From Staphylococcus schleiferi (GTDB lineage Bacteria; Bacillota; Bacilli; Staphylococcales; Staphylococcaceae): a stretch of 64,000 nt of DNA. The stretch spans positions 2,458,244 through 2,522,243 of the forward strand of contig NZ_LR962863.1 in the NCBI RefSeq assembly GCF_900458895.1. The letters are read 5' to 3'. The notes beneath the pieces were generated by a model. It was not told where the DNA came from. It saw only the letters and a program-made list of their open reading frames with translations, and did no database searches. Within the stretch, counting starts at the first letter, position 1. Every line of letters begins with the position of its first letter. This document shows positions 254 through 57,232 of the stretch, one piece after another. A program made the translations under genes and the position numbers.

Positions 254-2008
254 TTAAGAAGAGACCCCCCAATCTTTCGCACCGATGTGCATATCCCACA
301 TGCATTTATAGTGACCATTCATATTCAATAATCTTGCATGGTCACCTTTTTCAAGAATTTGTTGATGACCTAACACAATAATTTGATCTGCTTGTTTAAT
401 GGTAGATAATCGATGGGCAATAACAATGAGCGTCTTATTTTGAGTTAAAGCATTTAATGCAGCTTGAATTTTTTGTTCATTATCTGGGTCGACATAAGCT
501 GTCGCTTCATCTAATACAATAATCGGTGCATCTTTCAAGATCATTCTCGCTATTGTGACACGTTGTTTTTCACCGCCCGATAATTTATCACCAACTGAAC
601 CTACATTCGTATCATAGCCCTCTGGCATTTTCGTAATAAATTCATGACATTGCGCTAATTTAGCCGCTTCTTCAACCGCTTCATCTGATGCTTCCGGATT
701 ACCTAATTTAATATTTTCTTTAAACGTAAGATTTAATAAGAAGTTATCTTGCCCGACAAAACCAACTAATTCGTTCAGTTTCTTAGGTTCAATATCTTTA
801 ATATTTACGCCACCGATATCAATTTCACCGGACGTTACATCCCAGAATCTTGATAGTAATTTCGCAATCGTAGACTTACCACTACCAGATGCACCAACAA
901 TTGCTGTAAAAGTCTTCTCTGGAATAACAAACGACAAATGATTAAATACTAAGTTATCTTTGTCATTTGAATAAGAGAACCCAACATCATTAAATGTGAT
1001 TTGATGATTTTTAGGGTCTTTAAATGATTTCGAGACTTCAAGTTCTTCTAAATTCAATACTTGGCGTACTTCTGTAATCGCATATTGGATTGATTTTAAT
1101 TGATTAACATAATTCGTAAAGTTCTTGATTGGTGCGACAACACCTAAAGACAGTACTAAGCAAATAAAAAATTCTGCATAGTTCAACTGGTCAATTGAAA
1201 TCAAATACATACCTAGTGGTAGCACACCTAGAAAAGTCGAAGGAAGAATACTTGCACCTAAGTTCATATAGCCCCATGTACTTTTAAACCAATTTAAAGT
1301 ATGTATCTTATACGCACTAACAGCATCTTTATATTTTTTATAAGAATTTTGAGATTGATTAAATGTTTTAATAACTTCTATACCTTCAATGTATTCAACA
1401 ATTGAGCTATTCATGTAATTATTCGATGCCATTTGTTCTTCGTATGTCTCATTAAATCCAGACATTAATTTTTTAAAAGCAAAAAATGCAATCGGCACCG
1501 TAATCAACATGGCACAAGCCATACGCCAATCGATAATAACGATATAAACAAATATAGAAATAGACAGTAATAAATTACCTACTACTTCTGGAATAATATG
1601 CGCTAACGGTAATTCAATCGTTTCTACTTTATCGACAAATATACTTTTAAGTTCACCAATTTTTTTAGATTCTACAACACCTAAAGGTAAACGCATTAAT
1701 TTATGTGCCAATTGCTTTCTAATATTAGATAAAATATCATAAGCCGTCACATGCGATAACATCGTCGAACTTCCGAAACAAATAACCTGTATCACATAAG
1801 CACCAACTGCGATACTTATATAATAAATAACTTGATTCATCTCTGTATTTCCATCAATCATTAATAGTATGATTTTATATACCGTCCAATAAGGCACTAA
1901 TCCTGAAAACACACTAATAATAGACAATACAATAGATAAAACAATCTTCCATTTAGCATCTTGTCCAAATACGAGTAATGATTTTATCCAATGTTCATCG
2001 GTGTTCAT
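254..2008 (-). CDS. ABC transporter, fused permease and ATPase (YbtP/YbtQ/IrtB-like)
   Basis: This 584-residue protein has an N-terminal six-helix ABC exporter-type membrane domain (about 20-310) and a C-terminal ATPase domain (about 345-570). The ATPase has Walker A GASGSGKST, signature LSGGEKQR, Walker B IIVLDEAT and the switch histidine in AHRLST. It probably forms a heterodimer with the next gene, and it is the fourth intact gene of a Fur-box-led operon. Exporter-fold pairs of this type import metal-siderophore complexes in the yersiniabactin and mycobactin systems. That role fits the iron-type promoter and the ECF genes beside it but is inference; a drug or peptide exporter is the alternative. 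Confidence 0.8.
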   Translation of the reverse strand: MNTDEHWIKSLLVFGQDAKWKIVLSIVLSIISVFSGLVPYWTVYKIILLMIDGNTEMNQVIYYISIAVGAYVIQVICFGSSTMLSHVTAYDILSNIRKQLAHKLMRLPLGVVESKKIGELKSIFVDKVETIELPLAHIIPEVVGNLLLSISIFVYIVIIDWRMACAMLITVPIAFFAFKKLMSGFNETYEEQMASNNYMNSSIVEYIEGIEVIKTFNQSQNSYKKYKDAVSAYKIHTLNWFKSTWGYMNLGASILPSTFLGVLPLGMYLISIDQLNYAEFFICLVLSLGVVAPIKNFTNYVNQLKSIQYAITEVRQVLNLEELEVSKSFKDPKNHQITFNDVGFSYSNDKDNLVFNHLSFVIPEKTFTAIVGASGSGKSTIAKLLSRFWDVTSGEIDIGGVNIKDIEPKKLNELVGFVGQDNFLLNLTFKENIKLGNPEASDEAVEEAAKLAQCHEFITKMPEGYDTNVGSVGDKLSGGEKQRVTIARMILKDAPIIVLDEATAYVDPDNEQKIQAALNALTQNKTLIVIAHRLSTIKQADQIIVLGHQQILEKGDHARLLNMNGHYKCMWDMHIGAKDWGVSS

Positions 2009-2037
2009 ACTTTACTGACTCCTCTCATTGATGCGAA

Positions 2038-3492
2038 TTATACATCGAAATAATGATTCAATTGATCGATGCCTTGATGATTCAATGCGAACTGATTAAT
2101 AAGACGACCATCTCCAAAATGTAAGACATATGTACAAATCTCTAATATCAATGATTTATCATGTGTAATGATAAAGATTTGCTTTCCTTTGTCATGGATG
2201 TCGTTAATTATTTTCGCGACTTTTTTCATATGATATAAATCCAGCCCTGAAGTAGGTTCATCAAATATAATGATTTCCTTAGCACTCAATATTGCCGTAG
2301 CAATGGCCATTCTTTGTTTTTCTCCACCAGAAAGTGACAATGGATGTTCATGCTTTTTATCTAACAAATTCATACTTGCTAACATGTCATCAACTTGTGT
2401 ATCTGTTACTTGCACATTTAAAAGCTGTAATTCTTGTTCTAAGCTTTCCGTAAATAATTGTGTGTTTACATCTTGGAAAACCATATAGCTCTGCTTTAAT
2501 AATTGTTTCTGTTTGAGTCGCTTCTCGTCATATGTCACATGTCCTTGAAAATCCTTCAGCAAACCACATAAACATTTAGCAAAGGTCGATTTACCACTTC
2601 CGTTATCGCCGATAATCGCGACTACTTCACCTTTTGGTATGGCTATTTCATTCACATCTAATTGTTTCTCTTTATTAAATTTGTCATAAGTATAAGTAAA
2701 ATTATGCATTTCCATGACACGATCACCAAACTGTGGCTCATGTTGTAATCGTTCCTCTTGCCCGTATCGAATACCCATGTTTTCAAGTTCATCACAATCT
2801 AGTGATTTAAATGAATCTATAGAAAAATGGGCATGTAACGAGCCATGTTCCATATAATAGACGCTATCTGTCTCATCCATAATATAATCCAAACGATGTT
2901 CTATCAGCACGACCGTTTTACCGCGTTCTTTTAAATAAGAAATCATTTCTTTTAATTTCTTAATGCTATACATATCTAAATTTGAAGATGGCTCATCTAA
3001 TACGACAACATCTGGATTAGTAATAAGCACTGTCGCACATGCAATGATTTGTTTTTCGCCACCTGATAACTCAAATATGTTACGATCTAATAAATGCTCA
3101 ATTTTGAACTGGTTCATAATTGTTTTTATCTTTTCAATGATGACCGTTTTATCAATACCTTGATTTTCTAAATTAAACGCAAGCTCACTTGTCGTATCAA
3201 CGTTATAAAATTGCGTCTTCGGATTTTGAAATACACTACCAACCATTTGTGATAATTGATACATCTCAATTTCCGATATATTGCATCCATCCAAGTATAC
3301 ATGCCCACTCATATAACCAGGTTGAACTTTAGGAATTAAGCCGTTTATCAATTTAGCAACGGTAGACTTCCCGCTACCTGATTTACCACAGAACACGACT
3401 AATTCACCTTGTTTAATTTGAAGCGAGACATTTTGAATAGCTGGTTCTTCTGAAGAAGCATAGTTGAAAGTTACATTATCAAATTTAATCAT
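2038..3492 (-). CDS. ECF-type transporter ATPase, duplicated (EcfA-like, two ATP-binding domains)
   Basis: This 484-residue cytoplasmic protein carries two complete ABC ATPase domains. The first (about 1-230) has GKSGSGKST, LSGGEKQ and VVVLDEPSSNLD. The second (about 255-480) has GDNGSGKST, LSGGEKQR and IIIFDEPTSGLD. Energy-coupling-factor systems use either two ATPases or one fused double ATPase like this. The gene overlaps the upstream T-component gene by 8 bases, so the two are translationally coupled. Its substrate is set by the S component two genes upstream and cannot be read from this protein. Confidence 0.85.
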   Translation of the reverse strand: MIKFDNVTFNYASSEEPAIQNVSLQIKQGELVVFCGKSGSGKSTVAKLINGLIPKVQPGYMSGHVYLDGCNISEIEMYQLSQMVGSVFQNPKTQFYNVDTTSELAFNLENQGIDKTVIIEKIKTIMNQFKIEHLLDRNIFELSGGEKQIIACATVLITNPDVVVLDEPSSNLDMYSIKKLKEMISYLKERGKTVVLIEHRLDYIMDETDSVYYMEHGSLHAHFSIDSFKSLDCDELENMGIRYGQEERLQHEPQFGDRVMEMHNFTYTYDKFNKEKQLDVNEIAIPKGEVVAIIGDNGSGKSTFAKCLCGLLKDFQGHVTYDEKRLKQKQLLKQSYMVFQDVNTQLFTESLEQELQLLNVQVTDTQVDDMLASMNLLDKKHEHPLSLSGGEKQRMAIATAILSAKEIIIFDEPTSGLDLYHMKKVAKIINDIHDKGKQIFIITHDKSLILEICTYVLHFGDGRLINQFALNHQGIDQLNHYFDV

Positions 3493-4216: not shown

Positions 4217-4791
4217 ACAAGTCCCGCCTTTTTAAAATGTTTACTAAACATTTTCTTACCTAACCATGCACCAACAAGACCACCAAGCATTGTCAAAATA
4301 AACATCACAGGTAATGTCCATAAAGGTGTAATAAATTCCAAAACATTTACGTAATCTTGACCATAAGACTTCCCGACCTCTTTAAAGTATTGATCTCTTG
4401 CAATAAACATTCTTACGACAAATCCCATCATCCAAAACGAGAAAATAGCATAGCCCCACGCAATTGATTTCCACTCTTTATATCCACCAGATTTCATAAT
4501 GAAGTCACCAATCAAACCGAAGATAATGCCAAACGGAATCATAATTAAGCCACTGCCCATCACTGTAAAAGCAACACCTAAAATCGTTCCAGTCAATGTC
4601 ACCATACCAAATTTATCTATCTTCATAACATATAAAATAAACGGAATACCGCATACAATCGGACAAATGAACCCTAGAAACGGTATTAAAAATGGTATGT
4701 AACCAATCATAAAAGTAACAAAGGACACTACTAAATAAATCGCTGTAAAAATACCTACTGTAATTAAGTCTTTAACTGATAATTTATTCAT
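4213..4791 (-). CDS. ECF transporter S component, MptD/Trep_Strep family
   Basis: This 192-residue protein has five or six hydrophobic helices and no soluble domain. It begins MNKLSVKDLITVGIFTAIY, typical of ECF substrate-binding subunits, and a Gly-rich loop reads MGSGLIMIPFGIIFGLIGD. It matches the Trep_Strep/MptD family, which is usually found next to ABC transporter genes. In S. equi, as I recall it, a related set (eqbH-L) accompanies the equibactin NRPS. A metal-chelate or related small molecule is thus the most likely substrate, by inference only. A Shine-Dalgarno site lies in the 26 bases after the thioesterase pseudogene. Confidence 0.75.
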   Translation of the reverse strand: MNKLSVKDLITVGIFTAIYLVVSFVTFMIGYIPFLIPFLGFICPIVCGIPFILYVMKIDKFGMVTLTGTILGVAFTVMGSGLIMIPFGIIFGLIGDFIMKSGGYKEWKSIAWGYAIFSFWMMGFVVRMFIARDQYFKEVGKSYGQDYVNVLEFITPLWTLPVMFILTMLGGLVGAWLGKKMFSKHFKKAGLV

Positions 4792-4817
4792 AATCTAACT
4801 CCCCGTCTGTTAAAATT

Positions 4818-5860
4818 TTATATTAATAATTTTGCAACATATGACGCATACTCTTTATCGTCAACACAATTATAATGATTACCAGGTATAGGTATTTCAG
4901 TGAAATCACCTATACAACAATTTTGCCAAAATTCATTACTATCTTGTGCTGGTAACAAATCAGAACCATCTTCTTGTGCTTTCAAATAAGTTACATCACC
5001 TATATATGTAGTAGGTGTCATATGTGCCCCTTCCCAACTTGCCATTTGTGTTTTATATGAAGAAATTAAGAAATCTGTGTTGACTGTATTATCACCATCC
5101 TTTTTAGAATCAATAACTTCAGTATATTTTTCAAATCGTTCATTAAAAGATTTGTATTTAAAAAATTGTTCTAACTCTATTTTTAATTCATCTTCTTCAC
5201 CGTACTGTTTGATAATGAAATTCAATAAATCGTATTCTGCATCAGTTTCAATATTAGAATACATGGCTCTAATACTATCGTTTAGTTTGTTTTAATCAAT
5301 GGTTGGTAATACATCTTTAATCGTAATAAAGTGAGTTTGGATAAATGCCATTTCTGAAACCATATAATCGATTTCTGATAGCGGTGATGGTGAAGTATCA
5401 ATTAAAGTAACATTGTCAACATCGACATCACTAAGCATGAGCATACTTGCTACTTCCATAGCGATTAAACCTCCCGAACAGTAACCCACTAAGTGAACAG
5501 ATTTATATCCTGATTCTTCGATAAGATCTGCATACTCTTCACTAATTTTCTTAACGAGTTGATGTTTCTCTATATGACAATATTTTTCTTGGTCTTGAAT
5601 TGTAATACCTGCAATAGCATCTCGATCGTTAGTTTTTAATTCATCAAGCATTTCTTCATAAATTTCACTAACTAATCTATATTAGTTATAGGTCGTTCTC
5701 CAAATCGACTTTATCTTCCTGGATAAAGAATACGCAACACATTAAAACCCTTAAAAGAAAGGGTCCAATTCTTATAAATATTGGACCCACCGCCTGCAAA
5801 TGGAAATAAAATAATAGATTTATCAAATTCATTATGGTTGTCGATCAAATATTTATTCAA
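4818..5860 (-). pseudogene. type II thioesterase (GrsT/YbtT-like) of an NRPS pathway, broken
   Basis: Stitching frames gives one alpha/beta-hydrolase thioesterase. Its N-terminus contains ILFPFAGGGSNIYKNW and VLRILYPGR. The nucleophile elbow is GYCSGG and the catalytic-His region is IPGNHYN. The reading frame is broken by a stop after YPGR (where the family has Glu), a frameshift near 5683-5690 before LVSEIYEEML, and another stop after VLPTID at 5292-5294; frame resumes as NKLNDSIRAMYSNIE. A TTG at 5858-5860 behind GAGGAG is a plausible start. Such enzymes edit stalled NRPS carrier proteins. This one is the first gene of the transporter operon, directly behind the Fur-box promoter. No NRPS module is visible in the window. 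Confidence 0.8.
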
Positions 5861-6976: not shown

Positions 6977-8503
6977 CGTACTTGGTGGTTTTGATGTGAT
7001 GTCGTAAACAACGCGGTTAACGTGATCGACTTCATTTACGATACGTGTTGAGATTTTTTGTAAGACTTCCCAATCGATGCGTGCAAAGTCACTTGTCATC
7101 CCATCAATAGATGTGACTGCGCGGATACCGACTGTATAATCATACGTGCGGTAGTCTCCCATGACACCGACCGAGCGAATATCTGGTAATACTGTAAAGT
7201 ATTGCCAGATTTCACGTTCTAGACCTTCTTGGCGAATCACTTCACGTAAAATCGCGTCTGATTCACGCACGATTTCTAATTTGTCTTCAGTAATTTCACC
7301 AAGTACACGGATACCTAATCCTGGGCCTGGGAATGGTTGTCTCCATACTAAATGTTCTGGAATACCTAACTCAATTCCTAGAGCACGCACTTCATCTTTA
7401 AATAATGTATTAATCGGTTCAATTAATTCGAATTCCATGTCTTCTGGTAAACCACCTACATTGTGGTGAGATTTAATTGTTTGTGCTGTTTTTGTACCAG
7501 ACTCAATAACATCCGTATAAAGTGTCCCTTGTGCTAAGAAATCGACACCTTCTAATTTTGACGCCTCATCATCAAAAACATAAACAAATTCATTACCAAT
7601 GATTTTACGTTTTTTCTCTGGATCAGAAACACCCGCGAGTTTCGACATGAATCGGTCTTTAGCATTCACACGAATGATGTTCATGTTAAAGCCTTCACCG
7701 AATTGTTCCATTACCATGTCTCCTTCACCTTTACGTAAAAGTCCATGGTCAACAAAGATACATGTTAGTTGATCACCAATCGCTTTGTGTAATAATACCG
7801 CAACAACAGATGAATCAACACCGCCACTCATCGCACATAAAACTTTGCGATCTCCTACTTTGTCACGGATTTTTTGGACTTCAATATCAATGAAGTTTTC
7901 CATTGTCCACTCACCTGTACATCCACATACACGGCGAATAAAGTTGCGTAGTAAGTCATTACCAAATTCTGTATGACGTACTTCTGGATGGAATTGTACA
8001 CCATAAATACGACGTTTTTTATCTTCAATCGCTGCATATTGTGTACTTGGACTGTCCGCAATCACTTCAAAACCTTCTGGGATTTCAATCACTTTATCAG
8101 AGTGACTCATCCAAACAGTTTGCTCCTCAGGTAAGCCAAAGAACAACTCGTCAGATTTTGCATTGATAATTGCTTTACCATATTCACGTTCATTGGCACG
8201 TTCAACTTTACCACCGAGTAATTTCGTTGTCAGTTGCATTCCATAACAAATACCTAAAACAGGTACACCTAAGTTATAGATTTCAGGATCAATCGTAAAA
8301 GCATCTTCAGCATAAACTGAGTTAGGACCCCCTGATAAAATAATACCTTTAGGGTTCATTTTTTTGATTTCTTCAATTGGCATTTCGTGATCATGTAATT
8401 CACTATAAACGCCCATTTCACGAATACGACGTGTGATTAATTGGTTGTATTGACTTCCAAAATCGAGGACAAGAATGAGCTCTTGTTCTTTTGCCATTTC
8501 CAT
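6962..8503 (-). CDS. guaA: GMP synthase (glutamine-hydrolysing)
   Basis: This cytosolic enzyme of 513 residues converts XMP to GMP with ATP and glutamine. The N-terminal class I amidotransferase domain (1-200) has nucleophile GICYGMQ and the His/Glu pair in GVQFHPEV. The ATP-pyrophosphatase domain carries the PP-loop SGGVDSS, and the C-terminal dimerisation domain ends [11 protein letters not shown], as in S. aureus. Start ATG 8503 lies behind AAAGGAGT. It is the last gene of the guanine-riboswitch transcript, 22 bases after guaB. Its 3' end is an island integration site, yet the protein's C-terminus is intact. Confidence 0.97.
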
Positions 8504-52289: not shown

Positions 52290-52675
52290 GGTTCTGTTGC
52301 AAAGTTAGAAAAAAATACCTAATGTATGTCCATCTGCATCAATTGCGCGATACAGATGATACCACTGTCCTTTAATTTTGATATATGTCTCATCAATACG
52401 CCACTTATAATACGCTTTTTTATGTTTTCTCTTCCAAATTTGATATAAAATAGGTGCATATTCTTGAACCTAACGATATACGGTTGAATGATGAATGTTC
52501 ACACCTCGTTCTCTTAATATTTCAGATATATCACGATAACTCAAAGAGTATCTTAGGTAGTAGTCAACGGCTACAGTAATAACATCCTTATCGAATTGTT
52601 TATACCTGAAATAGTTCATACAGAAGAGCCCTTTTTATTTAAATTATACTATAAACTTAACTTTGCAACAGAACC
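52290..52675 (-). mobile_element. IS431/IS257 (IS6 family) remnant 1, internally deleted
   Basis: Both ends carry the IS431 repeat (GGTTCTGTTGCAAAGTT left, AACTTTGCAACAGAACC right), but only 386 of about 790 bases remain. The minus strand encodes the transposase N-terminal half (MNYFRYKQFDKDVITVAVDY, WRIDETYIKIKGQWYHLYRA) with a stop in place of Trp after HHSTVYR. About 400 bases of the 3' part are gone. Confidence 0.9.
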
Positions 52676-52679
52676 TAAA

Positions 52680-53028
52680 AAAGCATCGCGCTTTTGTTTT
52701 TTTCAATTACTTCTTCAATCACACGCTGTGCTTGATAACTATTCTTCATGGCACGCCTCCAATTACAAACCGGACATAATTTTGATTTACAAAACCATGT
52801 TTTATATAATTTCAAATACCCGTCTTCTGTCGGTTTAAATTCTAAGACATTACCCCATTGTTTAACGTTGTGCGCTTTTTTAATTTTTAAGATTTCAAGT
52901 ATATCTGCGTAACTTACATTATCTATTTTCTTTTCTCTCCTTGGGCGTTCTTACCCATTTTTACTAATATCTTTTAAGGTTTCATTATTTTGATTTTCAA
53001 AAACATATTTTGTATGATTAGTATGCAT
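52680..53028 (-). pseudogene. pUB110-type rolling-circle Rep, N-terminal fragment A
   Basis: The frame from ATG 53026-53028 reads MHTNHTKYVFENQNNETLKD, a stop after SKNG, then ERPRREKKIDNVSYADILEIL and LYKTWFCKSKLCPVCNWRRA (zinc-type Cys pair of Rep_1). It ends abruptly at IS431 remnant 1, so the catalytic HUH and Tyr regions are missing. Rep_1 proteins nick the double-strand origin of small staphylococcal plasmids. Confidence 0.85.
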
Positions 53029-53131
53029 AACAAAACACCAACATTCTTACAGTTTGGTGATATAAAAGCATAAAAAAACTCCAGTATTTGATTTAGTCTA
53101 GTCAACTTATATCTTACTACTGGGGTTTTTT

Positions 53132-53266
53132 ATGTCAAAAATTTCTTTCACGCTTAAATCAGCCCGCAAACCCTTTGTTATCAAGGGTATAGCGACGAAA
53201 AGTAAAATCGAGTTATTTCAATATAGTATCAAGACAAGAAGAAACTCGTTTTCAACTCGTTTCTAA
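53132..53266 (+). CDS. 44-codon frame of unknown nature, copy A
   Basis: MSKISFTLKSARKPFVIKG... begins immediately after a hairpin (AACTCCAGTA / TACTGGGGTT) and stops at 53264. A nearly identical start recurs at 55687. Basic and short; probably the broken N-terminus of a mobile-element gene. Family not recognised. Confidence 0.35.
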   Translation: MSKISFTLKSARKPFVIKGIATKSKIELFQYSIKTRRNSFSTRF

Positions 53267-53271
53267 AAACC

Positions 53272-53964
53272 TTAAAACGTCTTGACCTTTCTTAATTTAT
53301 AACTTTTTGAAGAAATATTTGGCAATGCATACGGCGCTATAATATGTGAACCTGGATCATATATTGATTTTTTACTAGCCCCATATTTATAAGCTTGATA
53401 AACAATTTTAGAACAATAAGTTGGATTTTTAGAAGATAGTTTTGTATTGATTCCATAATTATATTTTTTTCCAACATAATTCTTCTTAGCCCAAGCAGCT
53501 GCTTTCGGTCCAGCCTTAGAATTTTTAGAACGATAAATTTTCAACCATTGTCCTTTACCAGAATATCTTTTTTTAAACCAAGAAAAACTATGTACAGCTG
53601 GATGATGTCCCGCACTATGTATATGCAAAACTTGATTACTACTTATAGCAATAGCTGCATGTCCAGTCAATCCTTTAGAACTTGTTGCATTAGAAATTAA
53701 TACATCTCCCGCTTTTAAACGAAAGCCTGATGAATAAGAAACTATCTCTGAATCATTCTCTAAAGATTGTTTACCTGATTCGCTTTCTTGTAAAAATTGA
53801 TTCCATTGATCTTCACTAACAGTATTATCTAAAATACCATCTTGTTGTAAACTTTGATAATTATCACCTTCAATCTCATTGGCATATGTAGACTCAGAAA
53901 AATACAATAAAACAAAAGAAGTTGTAAATATTAAAGTTAAAAAAAGAATAATTACTTTTTTCAT
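53272..53964 (-). CDS. secreted YiiX/YebB-type (permuted NlpC/P60) hydrolase
   Basis: This 230-residue protein has a signal peptide (MKKVIILFLTLIFTTSFVLL...STYA). The C-terminal domain has the permuted papain-like order: GDVLISN, then the catalytic His in SKGLTGHAAIAIS, and the Cys in PTYCSKIVYQAYKYG. Relatives cut amide bonds in peptidoglycan or lipids. A linker (about 30-80) is acidic. ATG 53964 follows AAGGAG. It is divergent from a small membrane-protein gene inside the plasmid-derived region, and is flanked by the two direct-repeat blocks. Confidence 0.75.
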   Translation of the reverse strand: MKKVIILFLTLIFTTSFVLLYFSESTYANEIEGDNYQSLQQDGILDNTVSEDQWNQFLQESESGKQSLENDSEIVSYSSGFRLKAGDVLISNATSSKGLTGHAAIAISSNQVLHIHSAGHHPAVHSFSWFKKRYSGKGQWLKIYRSKNSKAGPKAAAWAKKNYVGKKYNYGINTKLSSKNPTYCSKIVYQAYKYGASKKSIYDPGSHIIAPYALPNISSKSYKLRKVKTF

Positions 53965-54042
53965 AGCAAACTCCTTTCTTTTATATTAATATTACGTTAA
54001 TAGTCATAAAAATAAAATGATAAAATATTAATGAAAGGCGTT

Positions 54043-54411
54043 ATGAAAATGAAATTTAAACTCTTGTATTTATTAACCCCATTCATACCAATAGAATTTA
54101 TAGCAATCTATATTGACTATGCATATAATTCCCTACTCGGATATATTCCTTACTTGGTTGTTTCTGCAATTATCAGCTTGTACATATTCAAAAAAAAATT
54201 TAAAAAAAGTGTGTCTATACTGGTAAATAGAGTAATTGGAATTATTATTTCTTTTGGAAGTGTCCACACCTTTATGAACGTTTATCATTCCTCAGATTAT
54301 TTCACTCCTTTTTCAACCAGCGGATTCTCAATATTTTTAGGACTTATAAGTTTTATAACAATCGCCATTATTTATCTCGTCATATACGGAATTTCTTCAA
54401 AAAACAATTAG
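54043..54411 (+). CDS. small four-helix membrane protein
   Basis: This 122-residue hydrophobic protein has four predicted helices (about 5-22, 30-48, 62-80, 94-118) and basic loops KKKFKKS. ATG 54043 follows GAAAGG at short spacing. It is transcribed divergently from the secreted YiiX-type hydrolase, 78 bases away. An immunity-like or transport role can be imagined but nothing in the sequence proves it. Confidence 0.5.
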   Translation: MKMKFKLLYLLTPFIPIEFIAIYIDYAYNSLLGYIPYLVVSAIISLYIFKKKFKKSVSILVNRVIGIIISFGSVHTFMNVYHSSDYFTPFSTSGFSIFLGLISFITIAIIYLVIYGISSKNN

Positions 54412-55193: not shown

Positions 55194-55441
55194 GGTTTTG
55201 TTGTAAAATTAGAAAAAAATATCTAATTTCCTTTTTTATCATGTCAGCATTTGCTTAACTTGCTAACATATAACTAATTTTGTGGCATGCGAAAATCCGT
55301 AAATCTGAAGAGACCTACAGTTCTTTTTATATAGTCCATAAATACATTCAATACCCTTGATTGTTTATATCTGAAATAGTTCATACAGAAGAGCCCTTTT
55401 TATTTAAATTATACTATAAACTTAACCTTGCAACAGAACCT
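55194..55441 (-). mobile_element. IS431/IS257 remnant 2, both ends, 248 bp
   Basis: The left end is decayed (GGTTTTGTTGTAAAATTAG), followed by the recognisable IS431 3' segment (GTGGCATGCGAAAATCCGTA and TACATTCAATACC). It jumps directly to the 5' end (CTGAAATAGTTCATACAGAA ... CTTGCAACAGAACC). About 540 internal bases are missing, at a different breakpoint from remnant 1. Confidence 0.88.
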
Positions 55442-55445
55442 AAAA

Positions 55446-55582
55446 ACCATTGCGCTTTTGTTTTTTTTAATTACTTCTTCAATCACACGCTGTGCTTGAT
55501 AACTATTCTTCATGGCACGCCTCCAATTACAAACCGGACATAATTTTGATTTTCAAAATTATATTTTGTATGATTAGTATGC
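55446..55582 (-). pseudogene. pUB110-type Rep fragment B
   Basis: The same rep segment as fragment A (CPVCNWRRAMKNSYQAQRVI) has lost about 215 bases between two TTTTGATTT-CAAAA repeats, so the N-terminal TNHTK part is joined directly to the Cys region. It abuts IS431 remnant 2 exactly as fragment A abuts remnant 1. Confidence 0.8.
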
Positions 55583-55686
55583 ACAGAAAAACACCAACAT
55601 TCTTACAGTTTGGTTATATAAAAGCATAAAAAACTCCAGTATTTGATTTAGTCTAGTCAACTTATATCTTACTACTGGGGGTTTTT

Positions 55687-55899
55687 ATGTCAAAAATTTC
55701 TTTCACGCTTAAATCAGCCCGCAAACCCTTTGTTATCAAGGGTATAGCGACGAAAAGTAAAATCGAGTTATTTCTATATAGTATTAAAATCGAGTTATTT
55801 CTATATAGTATCAAGACAAGAAGAAACTCGTTTTCAACTCGTTTTAAATACAAACAAATACACGTGCTTATGACATACATAAACACGTGCAAACACTAG
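55687..55899 (+). CDS. 70-codon frame of unknown nature, copy B
   Basis: Starts MSKISFTLKSARKPF like copy A but carries an in-frame 27-base tandem duplication (residues KIELFLYSI twice) and a different tail. Probably not functional. Confidence 0.3.
   Translation: MSKISFTLKSARKPFVIKGIATKSKIELFLYSIKIELFLYSIKTRRNSFSTRFKYKQIHVLMTYINTCKH
55759..55812 (+). repeat. 27-bp tandem duplication
   Basis: The unit AAAATCGAGTTATTTCTATA... occurs twice in a row (55759-55785, 55786-55812), once in copy A. Confidence 0.85.
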
Positions 55900-56079
55900 C
55901 TATCTATTTTTTATAAACAGTATTATATAAACGCAAGTCATTAAAAGAAAAGGAATAGTCAATAAAAAGACTTTTAAATGACTTATATTAGAAACCCACA
56001 AAAACAAAGATAGCATAAATATATAACTCAAAATCACAATAAAAAATATTGGCCAGTTGAAGATCTTTCTATCATACAT
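55900..56079 (-). CDS. 59-residue two-helix membrane protein, candidate immunity protein
   Basis: The minus-strand frame from ATG 56077-56079 reads MYDRKIFNWPIFFIVILSY..., with two hydrophobic helices (about 9-29 and 35-55) and the basic end FIKNR. AAAAGGTGGGA gives a good ribosome site. It starts 14 bases after the glycine-rich precursor gene, so the two form an operon. Size, charge and position resemble immunity proteins of class II bacteriocins; that role is inference. Confidence 0.6.
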   Translation of the reverse strand: MYDRKIFNWPIFFIVILSYIFMLSLFLWVSNISHLKVFLLTIPFLLMTCVYIILFIKNR

Positions 56080-56093
56080 AGTTATCCCACCTT

Positions 56094-56651
56094 TTAACAG
56101 CCAGCTACATATCCGCCAGAAGCACCGCCAATACCGCCACCGATGGCTCCTACAACACCACCACTAACAGTTCCAACAATAGGAAGTGTAACAGTACCAA
56201 CAGCAGCTCCTCCTAAGCCACCAGTTGTCGCACCACCAATAGCTCCTCCCACAGTTCCGATTACACATTTAGCAGCTCCTCTTTCTTGCTGCTGCTTAAC
56301 AACTTGAACGCCCAACTTACCATCCTCTTCAAAATAAACTAAAGTCGCGTTTTCACCATTTTTGTCTTTTGCTGTTACAGGTAATTGCTCAGTTTTTCCA
56401 GAACGAGTATCTTTTATCGTAGCTATACCATTTTCATCAACATTGTATGTAATCCCTTTATTCAAATCAATTCTAGCCACGTTATCATTAATTTTCGAAA
56501 TTGTTCCAGCACATTTTTTAGAAACCATAGATGAATTTGCTTCAGAAGCTTCAGAATCATTATCAATGCCAATAGGGCTAAATACAATACCAGAAGCAAT
56601 GACAAATGCAAGAGAAGCTTTTATAATTTTTGAAGTATTAATATTATACAT
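56094..56651 (-). CDS. secreted glycine-zipper protein, bacteriocin-like precursor
   Basis: This 185-residue protein has a signal peptide (KIIKASLAFVIASGIVFSP...). A soluble middle region (about 45-120: KINDNVARIDLNKGITYNV, VYFEEDGKLGVQVV) follows. The hydrophobic C-terminal 58 residues start at a Cys after ERGAAK and end in Cys: CVIGTVGGAIGGATTGG...GIGGASGGYVAGC. GxxxG repeats of this density form membrane-inserting helix pairs, as in pore-forming bacteriocins. Terminal cysteines could close a disulfide. The family is not known to me; a stress or surface protein is the alternative. The cotranscribed small membrane gene supports a toxin/immunity reading. Confidence 0.65.
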   Translation of the reverse strand: MYNINTSKIIKASLAFVIASGIVFSPIGIDNDSEASEANSSMVSKKCAGTISKINDNVARIDLNKGITYNVDENGIATIKDTRSGKTEQLPVTAKDKNGENATLVYFEEDGKLGVQVVKQQQERGAAKCVIGTVGGAIGGATTGGLGGAAVGTVTLPIVGTVSGGVVGAIGGGIGGASGGYVAGC

Positions 56652-56725
56652 TGTAAAAATTCTTTATTTCAGAATTTAAACAATCCCTTAATAAACATCC
56701 CAATATATAACATATCATATTTTTG

Positions 56726-56761: not shown

Positions 56762-56796
56762 TGCTACAAGAAATTAATAAAGGTAATAATAATTAA

Positions 56797-56915
56797 GTAG
56801 TAGCCAACGCTTATAGTAATAATATCCTTATTGAATTGTTTATATCTGAAATAGTTCATACAGAAGAGCCCTTTTCATTTAAATTATACTATAAACTTAA
56901 CTTTGCAACAGAACC
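56797..56915 (-). mobile_element. IS431/IS257 remnant 3 (one end)
   Basis: From AGTAGTAGCCAACGCTTATA to the terminal ACTTTGCAACAGAACC: the transposase start region and one inverted repeat only. The other end is missing. Confidence 0.85.
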
Positions 56916-57232
56916 TAAAAATTCAATTTAATTATTGTCACTTTTTATGGACTATTTTTAAAAGTGTAAAAGTCATTGTAATAAAGAACTAATACTTTAT
57001 TTCAAATCACTTAAAGAAAAGCAACATAACCTTTTCATTAATGCTTAATAAATTGTGAACTTCACTGACTCTGTAATAATCAAAAACTAAGAGGTTACTA
57101 TATTTTGTTATTTTAGAATGCTCTTTCGCCGTAAAACTTTGAGAGAACAAGACATCAAGATCTTCTTCTCTCAAAGTTTAGTTTTGATACGTGATTCTTA
57201 ATTATTATGTAAAAAACACCCTTCCCTTTTTC
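56916..57232. other. gap after the last IS remnant
   Basis: AT-rich, no gene seen. A GAGAGAACAAGACATC...CTTCTCTCAAAG hairpin-like repeat lies at about 57137-57178. Confidence 0.4.

Follow-up and report, generated by a model that had tools for sequence, protein, structure and literature searches.

A predicted bacteriocin-immunity gene pair of staphylococci, with a glycine-zipper core behind a Sec-type signal and a pro-domain

PAMP/PamA of Propionibacterium jensenii is made as a long secreted precursor, and a protease activates its C-terminal peptide. EntV of Enterococcus faecalis is described, in the passages cited, as a 170-residue prepropeptide with a signal peptide and a disulfide, from which the extracellular protease GelE frees a C-terminal peptide of 68 residues (PMC6606811). 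SdpC and YitM of Bacillus subtilis, in the part of the account that we cite, have a signal peptide, share their N-terminal three quarters, differ in a C-terminal hydrophobic toxin, and have a dedicated immunity protein (PMC6818787). Finally, the cited sections on CdzC/CdzD-CdzI of Caulobacter outline a glycine-zipper two-protein toxin that uses type I secretion and has a small membrane immunity protein (PMC5380434).

Here we consider a gene pair from Staphylococcus schleiferi: a precursor with a Sec-type signal peptide and a glycine-zipper C-terminus, and a small membrane ORF, the partner, that follows it. A preliminary description of this DNA knew of no family with so long a leader and proposed that it might be a new class, but EntV and SdpC/YitM have the same layout, so it is not one. 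The same description read the pair as a secreted glycine-zipper bacteriocin precursor and its small membrane immunity protein, and this reading is supported by the pairing of the two genes and by a very similar core behind double-glycine leaders. It is very probable that the staphylococcal precursor gene makes an antibacterial toxin. Judging from sequence, we also think it likely that the pair is a bacteriocin-immunity cassette, in which a Sec-exported pro-peptide would give up its core to a protease and the partner would block the peptide; the activity itself is predicted.

The locus and its precursor

The window, by which we mean the whole stretch that was analysed (64,000 nucleotides), is the terminal 64 kb of a single-contig genome of 2,522,243 bases. 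In window coordinates, its relevant features are:

56652..56719, minus strand: conserved 5' leader, with a TATGATA element and a block that runs up to the start codon
56094..56651, minus strand: precursor ORF, read from 56651 to 56094, 185 codons with an ATG start; predicted Sec-type signal peptide, beta pro-domain, and C-terminal glycine-zipper core
56544..56651, minus strand: predicted signal peptide, residues 1 to about 36, its end placed by eye; hydrophobic stretch at 9-27; low-confidence N-terminus in the model
56292..56513, minus strand: pro-domain, residues 47-120, the sole confidently predicted part and all beta; blocks within 51-120 have mean pLDDT of 67-86
56097..56279, minus strand: predicted released peptide, residues 125-185 (after Arg124), which contains the Cys129-Cys185 glycine zipper; putative cleavage point
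56080..56093, minus strand: gap of 14 bases between precursor and partner, which holds the partner's own ribosome-binding site
55900..56079, minus strand: partner ORF, read from 56079 to 55900, 59 codons, two hydrophobic helices; predicted immunity protein
55318..55446, no strand assigned: insertion-sequence end remnant on one flank of the pair (repeat D1, 72%)
56793..56921, no strand assigned: insertion-sequence end remnant on the other flank (repeat D1, 93%)
52553-52681: third repeat with an insertion-sequence end
52470-52619: transposase-like fragment

Both ORFs lie where the preliminary description had put them, and the precursor does have what looks like the signal peptide that it reported, as well as the 58-residue, cysteine-bounded tail dense in GxxxG. 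Residues 1 to about 36 comprise a charged start, the hydrophobic stretch, and an end rich in Ser, Glu, and Ala. In the AF2 model of the precursor (33 aligned sequences, mean pLDDT 51.6, pTM 0.45), residues 1-46, which include the signal peptide, and residues 121-185 are of low confidence, with a folded beta domain in between. Comparing the fold of this pro-domain gave no clear match, and neither Pfam nor NCBIfam has a model for the precursor family. The window precursor has no double-glycine leader (by eye, its N-terminus is Sec-type), and it has no match to PF10439 (Bacteriocin_IIc) at E values up to 10.

The tail consists of Lys128 and the 57 residues from Cys129 to Cys185. It has 14 GxxxG motifs, versus a mean of 7.5 in composition-preserving shuffles, and because only 4 of 10,000 such shuffles reach 14, the spacing goes beyond what glycine content alone would give. 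The GxxxG-rich hydrophobic core that marks PF10439-type peptides is thus also found in the window precursor. Both core cysteines are invariant, in 25 of 25 sequences in alignment A1 and 33 of 33 in alignment A3. In A1, the wider alignment (25 rows), conservation lies almost wholly in the core, and the N-terminal parts vary: eight rows (P0028 and P0030-P0036, with P0033 having another start) have N-termini unlike the staphylococcal ones, and most of these look lipoprotein-like by eye. The window precursor also has an extra cysteine, Cys46, where the staphylococcal rows of A1 carry other residues. Just ahead of the core cysteine, many Sec-type relatives have R-G-x-x-K-C or N-W-x-K-C (L012, L013, and L048 are among the exceptions), and the closest double-glycine relatives have GG-G-W-(I/V)-K-C. 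Given these motifs, the precursor is likely cut a few residues before the cysteine.

The insertion-sequence remnants on both sides of the pair presumably belong to the IS6 family, and on an S. aureus plasmid (L039), the precursor has a gene annotated as an IS6-like IS257 transposase 132 bases upstream. For these two reasons, the pair resembles a cassette that may have moved. Both genes appear to be under purifying selection: relative to a copy from S. simulans (L005), the partner has 5 synonymous and 2 non-synonymous changes (at 33.7 and 143.3 sites), and the precursor has 15 and 8 (at 135.8 and 419.2 sites). The genome also contains a second, diverged precursor copy with a 56-aa membrane ORF (L037, at C1:1575820-1576341), which belongs to the family because the whole proteins match with E = 1.1e-11.

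We note a few other features of this end of the genome. Near the insertion-sequence remnants lie two copies, 98% identical, of a segment of roughly 200 bases that includes a short ORF (MSKISFTLKSARKPF...); they are at window positions 53073-53262 and 55628-55844. A secreted permuted-papain protein at 53272-53964 (minus strand) is above the cut-off for Peptidase_C92, and it scores 153 bits against LnsA from NCBIfam, which is below the cut-off of 225. A 126-aa membrane protein at 54031-54411 (plus strand) adjoins it, and a 121-aa membrane protein near another family member (L027) is similar to this one by eye.

Distribution and pairing with the partner

Within the genus, 22 of 84 genomes have a relative of the precursor, and a profile finds one in 15 of the 398 genomes sampled from the class (its own genome is counted both times); a few of the weakest matches in the class (L057 and L058) are glycine-rich stretches of other ORFs. 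Among plasmids, 22 records match the 851-base region of the pair, and 17 (9 from S. aureus and 8 from S. simulans) cover 80% or more of it at a single place. Four phage records have a relative, although two of these are one phage; the carriers are SPbeta-like, and the one phage that we opened (L040) has a 59-aa membrane ORF after the precursor. There are also relatives in Flavobacterium (L008), Anaerococcus (L009), Rhodococcus, and Corynebacterium. The precursors are annotated as hypothetical proteins, and the plasmid gene table, which is incomplete by its own description, has no feature under the partner in any of the 21 listed records. A full-text search of the open-licence literature gave no paper that we recognised as describing the family.

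Some of these loci have unusual neighbors. The S. simulans contig L005 encodes two further pairs of a secreted precursor and a small membrane ORF (216 and 82 aa at 4433-5303, and 187 and 86 aa at 7060-7899). It also encodes two peptides (47 and 48 aa) whose starts resemble double-glycine leaders, and it has an ORF that resembles an ABC transporter (labels by eye); the contig is perhaps a bacteriocin island. At L007:5248-5871 (minus strand), a CPYC lipoprotein that looks DsbA-like by eye lies just upstream of, and divergent from, a frameshifted precursor.

The partner was reported as a 59-codon gene with two helices and its own ribosome site, 14 bases after the precursor, and this is what we find: AAGGTGG ends 7 bases ahead of the ATG, and the hydrophobic stretches are residues 11-29 and 32-50. 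The preliminary description also said that its reading should be given up if the small downstream gene were not conserved. The gene is conserved: a small membrane ORF follows the precursor in 36 of 41 related loci, which are not independent of each other, versus 9 of 122 control ORFs, some of which are not real genes and some of which may belong to other toxin pairs. We counted an ORF of 45-95 aa with a strong hydrophobic segment that starts from -25 to +150 bases from the precursor's end (or, for L021, L025, and L038, the end of the match). The controls are mechanical ORFs of at least 150 aa from 13 sources. Within the 41 loci, L005 and L041 have one partner sequence; L006, L013, and L018 have another; and L040, L065, and L066 are near copies. 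We placed other copies or near copies outside the 41 (L001, L007, L011, L014, L032, L035, L045-L047, L049-L051, L054, and L059-L062), along with pACK2 (L044), L057 and L058 (which have no bacteriocin-like ORF), L063 (whose contig ends at the stop), L064, and L067.

Five loci fail this rule. The partner of L019 is shortened; L030 and L031 have the N-terminal part only, without core or partner; and L055 and L056 are more distant double-glycine peptides. In L029, the core is absent, yet the partner is kept. Among the 36 loci with a partner, there are 33 distinct partners (by their last 50 residues), and these sort into several families.

The partner varies with the core to a degree that the rest of the precursor does not account for. 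Across 23 Sec-type pairs (near copies included), the distances between cores and between partners are correlated (r = 0.87), and given the N-terminal part, the partial correlation is 0.56; 0 of 2,000 permutations reach either value. For the N-terminal part and the partner, r = 0.84, with a partial correlation of 0.44.

Of the 84 genomes of the genus, 10 have the window's partner, and G060, G061, and G011 give weak matches (E of 0.0002 to 0.0008). Three S. cohnii plasmids and genome G015 have a partner-like frame without a detected precursor. In the two S. cohnii plasmids that we opened, this orphan frame comes directly after an aminoacyltransferase gene and a hypothetical gene, and in the one that we scanned, the aminoacyltransferase is FemAB by Pfam. 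Orphan immunity, meaning an immunity gene without its toxin, is reported for cibC in the passages cited (PMC13059744). Taken together, the pairing, the co-variation, and the orphan frames are the behavior expected of immunity genes. As an aside, the S. cohnii plasmid L090 has a FemAB-family gene, a lipoprotein-like gene, and the orphan partner-like frame in a row (865-3175), which is perhaps a protection set against envelope-active bacteriocins.

We also considered whether the partner outlives a broken precursor, as a proof of immunity, and we give this little weight. Of ten loci whose precursor is broken or truncated, nine (L018, L020, L021, L024, L025, L026, L029, L038, and pACK2/L044, but not L019) have an open partner ORF of at least 52 codons. 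However, the partners of L025 and L026 begin at alternative starts and are perhaps truncated, and a partner has just one third of the precursor's length.

The shared leader and other export signals

The leader block is conserved from about a dozen bases past the TATGATA element to the start codon, and because of that element, it is presumably transcribed. The leader is also found upstream of the paralogue in the same genome and of an unrelated pair of a secreted precursor and a membrane ORF. A 20-base piece of it, with up to two mismatches, occurs at 11 places in 9 of the 84 genomes, while the reversed pattern (as a control) occurs at none. Nine of these places front a secreted precursor with a small membrane ORF: three belong to the precursor family, and six are of an unrelated type, with a secreted protein of 180-181 aa and then a membrane ORF of 55-57 aa. 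These six are L003/L075 (in the same genome as the window, from about C1:1043893), L068, L069, L070, L072, and L073. Two of the unrelated precursors were scanned and have no convincing Pfam family; the type is probably another pro-bacteriocin/immunity pair. As for the other two places, L074 has no ORF, and L078 (G063:C4) has a 61-aa membrane ORF alone behind a copy with two mismatches, which is possibly another orphan immunity gene, or chance.

Not every family member has the leader: of 19 with upstream DNA inspected, 8 have the block (it is partial in L027) and 11 lack it. In some copies, the upstream likeness partly resembles an insertion-sequence end, but in L063, L068, and L073, the block is present and this resemblance is not. 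We infer that the leader is a common expression signal for a set of pro-bacteriocins. The ribosome site of the window's precursor looks weaker than those of its relatives, so this copy may be poorly expressed.

A very similar core is found behind other export signals. With double-glycine leaders, P0070 and P0071 pass the cut-off for PF10439, as does L053 (43.2 bits versus 27.1), and P0059, whose core follows a lipoprotein-like start, narrowly misses it (26.0 versus 27.1). L053, P0070, and P0071 all have a (K/G)C...C glycine-zipper core and a GTVT(L/F)P..GTVSG block. In a second genus, that of G361, which is probably Streptococcus given the leaders, 16 of 147 genomes match the family profile. 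We inspected 14 of the loci. Four of them (L053, L095, L096, and L097) have a double-glycine leader, K-C, a zipper with an (A/G)TVTLP..GTVSG-type block, and a final ATFC, and each is followed by a membrane ORF of 58-59 aa. G-C and a final FC are found in two more (L099 and L104). The remaining eight do not have this cysteine frame or are more distant, but several still have a small membrane ORF. We take the PF10439-type relatives with double-glycine leaders to resemble the Blp, Cib, and Cab peptides of streptococci. In the Anaerococcus relative, the core comes almost straight after a signal peptide, and the locus has a 67-aa membrane ORF; the Flavobacterium relative is a lipoprotein-like precursor of 239 aa, with a 60-aa membrane ORF.

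Are these cores homologous? Against a profile of 14 staphylococcal cores, L053, P0070, and P0071 score 25-32 bits, far above shuffles, and L056 and L055 score 17.9 and 9.1 bits. But the two controls, one protein named SlyB and one that is Rhs-like (label by eye), score 26.6 and 28.6 bits, also far above shuffles, and some diverged family members barely exceed the shuffle maxima (4.5 versus 3.4 for the paralogue L037, and 9.2 versus 9.0 for L043). So we rejected the profile score as a sufficient proof that the Sec-type and double-glycine cores are homologous. Instead, core homology rests on the cysteine frame, the GTVTLP..GTVSG block, and the neighboring ORF, and of these, the block is found in the Rhs-like protein as well. 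The Rhs-like protein P0069 carries the GGAVGTVTLPIVGTVSGG block, as does P0070. In P0070, the double-glycine leader, the core, and a two-helix segment lie in one ORF, which is either a real fusion or a stop that was read through in gene calling.

If our main reading is right, then this suggests that a bacteriocin core can change its export route. A bolder version, which we hold to be slightly less likely than not, is that one core, some 57 residues long, has passed from one export format to another, at least four in all, and has taken its own small membrane immunity gene along. The formats would be double-glycine/ABC leaders, a short Sec signal, a Sec signal with a beta pro-domain, and the lipoprotein-like precursors of Bacteroidota. 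In staphylococci, the core would be part of a larger regulon, whose Sec-exported pro-bacteriocin/immunity pairs are unrelated but have one conserved mRNA leader and hence are switched on together.

Proposed mechanism and comparison with known systems

We propose that the precursor and the partner would be co-transcribed and that the precursor would be exported by Sec and lose its signal peptide. The beta pro-domain (residues 47-120) would keep it inactive. The two core cysteines would form a disulfide, and candidates for this step are two DsbA-like (Thioredoxin_4) places in the genome. An extracellular protease, for which the genome's one M4 metalloprotease is a candidate, would cut the linker before the core, most likely after Arg124, and free a peptide of about 61 residues. 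This peptide may insert as a glycine-zipper hairpin or oligomer and permeabilise the membrane of competing Gram-positive cells, and the 59-residue, two-helix partner would sit in the producer's membrane and block it. The core would be a bacteriocin module that is found elsewhere behind double-glycine leaders and is mounted here on a Sec signal and a pro-domain.

Alternatively, the pair could be the same toxin and immunity protein, but with a pro-protein that stays on the surface of the producer and kills by contact. The GxxxG peptides of Cdz (CdzC/D; PMC5380434) and Cab (CabAB; PMC13059744) are reported to kill this way in the passages cited, and the Flavobacterium precursor and several other relatives look lipoprotein-like by eye. 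On the other hand, no wall anchor or lipobox is visible by eye in the window precursor, and the Anaerococcus relative, with almost nothing between its signal peptide and its core, suits a free peptide. We consider contact killing unlikely. It is much less likely still that the precursor is not a toxin and instead acts in the envelope or in stress, anchored in the membrane by its glycine zipper and accompanied by a small accessory membrane protein. SlyB-type lipoproteins do have glycine zippers, and one of them scores on the core profile, but we would not expect such a protein to have a patchy distribution (22 of 84 genomes in the genus), to be carried by plasmids and phages, or to have a very similar core behind bacteriocin leaders; and precursors that are broken in several loci are unlike a housekeeping gene. 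A secreted factor against host cells, with a partner that protects the producer or aids export, would suit plasmids of staphylococci from people and animals, but it is hardly credible given the relatives in Flavobacterium, Anaerococcus, Rhodococcus, and Corynebacterium and the small membrane partners of the double-glycine bacteriocin-type copies.

If the pair is indeed a bacteriocin-immunity cassette, it matters for two reasons. First, bacteriocin finders rely on known leaders, transporters, and family models, and the precursor family has none of the last in Pfam or NCBIfam; the family would add a set of membrane-active peptides, some of them on S. aureus plasmids and staphylococcal phages. 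Second, the shared leader would be a sequence handle for finding further, unrelated pro-bacteriocins.

How does the pair compare with the known systems? It is like EntV, as described in the passages cited, in having a signal peptide, a pro-part, a disulfide, and a C-terminal peptide freed by a protease, although on the window's side these are predicted from the layout. The likeness seen is one of layout; none of the nine PDB sequences that the family profile matches (E up to 10) is named EntV. PAMP/PamA is similar in layout. With SdpC/YitM, as far as the cited account goes, the pair has in common a signal peptide, a shared N-terminal part, a C-terminal hydrophobic toxin, and an immunity protein. 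SdpA (PF17418) has no match in the genome, whereas the control in B. subtilis was positive, so processing of the Sdp type is unlikely. The Cdz system, in the sections cited, also combines a glycine-zipper toxin with a small membrane immunity protein, but it has two toxin proteins and type I secretion, in contrast to the Sec-type signal on a single precursor. Near the window's pair, we saw no transporter by eye among the ORFs at 50-62 kb, and none reached a curated cut-off among the four neighbors searched with Pfam, three of which were also searched with NCBIfam. The double-glycine class II bacteriocins of PF10439 have a GxxxG-rich, cysteine-framed core like the window's, with a small membrane ORF beside L053 and L095-L097, but where the window precursor has a Sec-type signal followed by a pro-domain of some 75 residues, they have a double-glycine leader. 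So the layout is known already, from EntV and SdpC/YitM as their cited accounts describe them, and the kind of core is probably known as well, being PF10439-like. What appears to be new is a family that Pfam and NCBIfam do not model: a PF10439-like core on a Sec signal and a beta pro-domain, with its predicted immunity gene, across staphylococci, their plasmids, and their phages.
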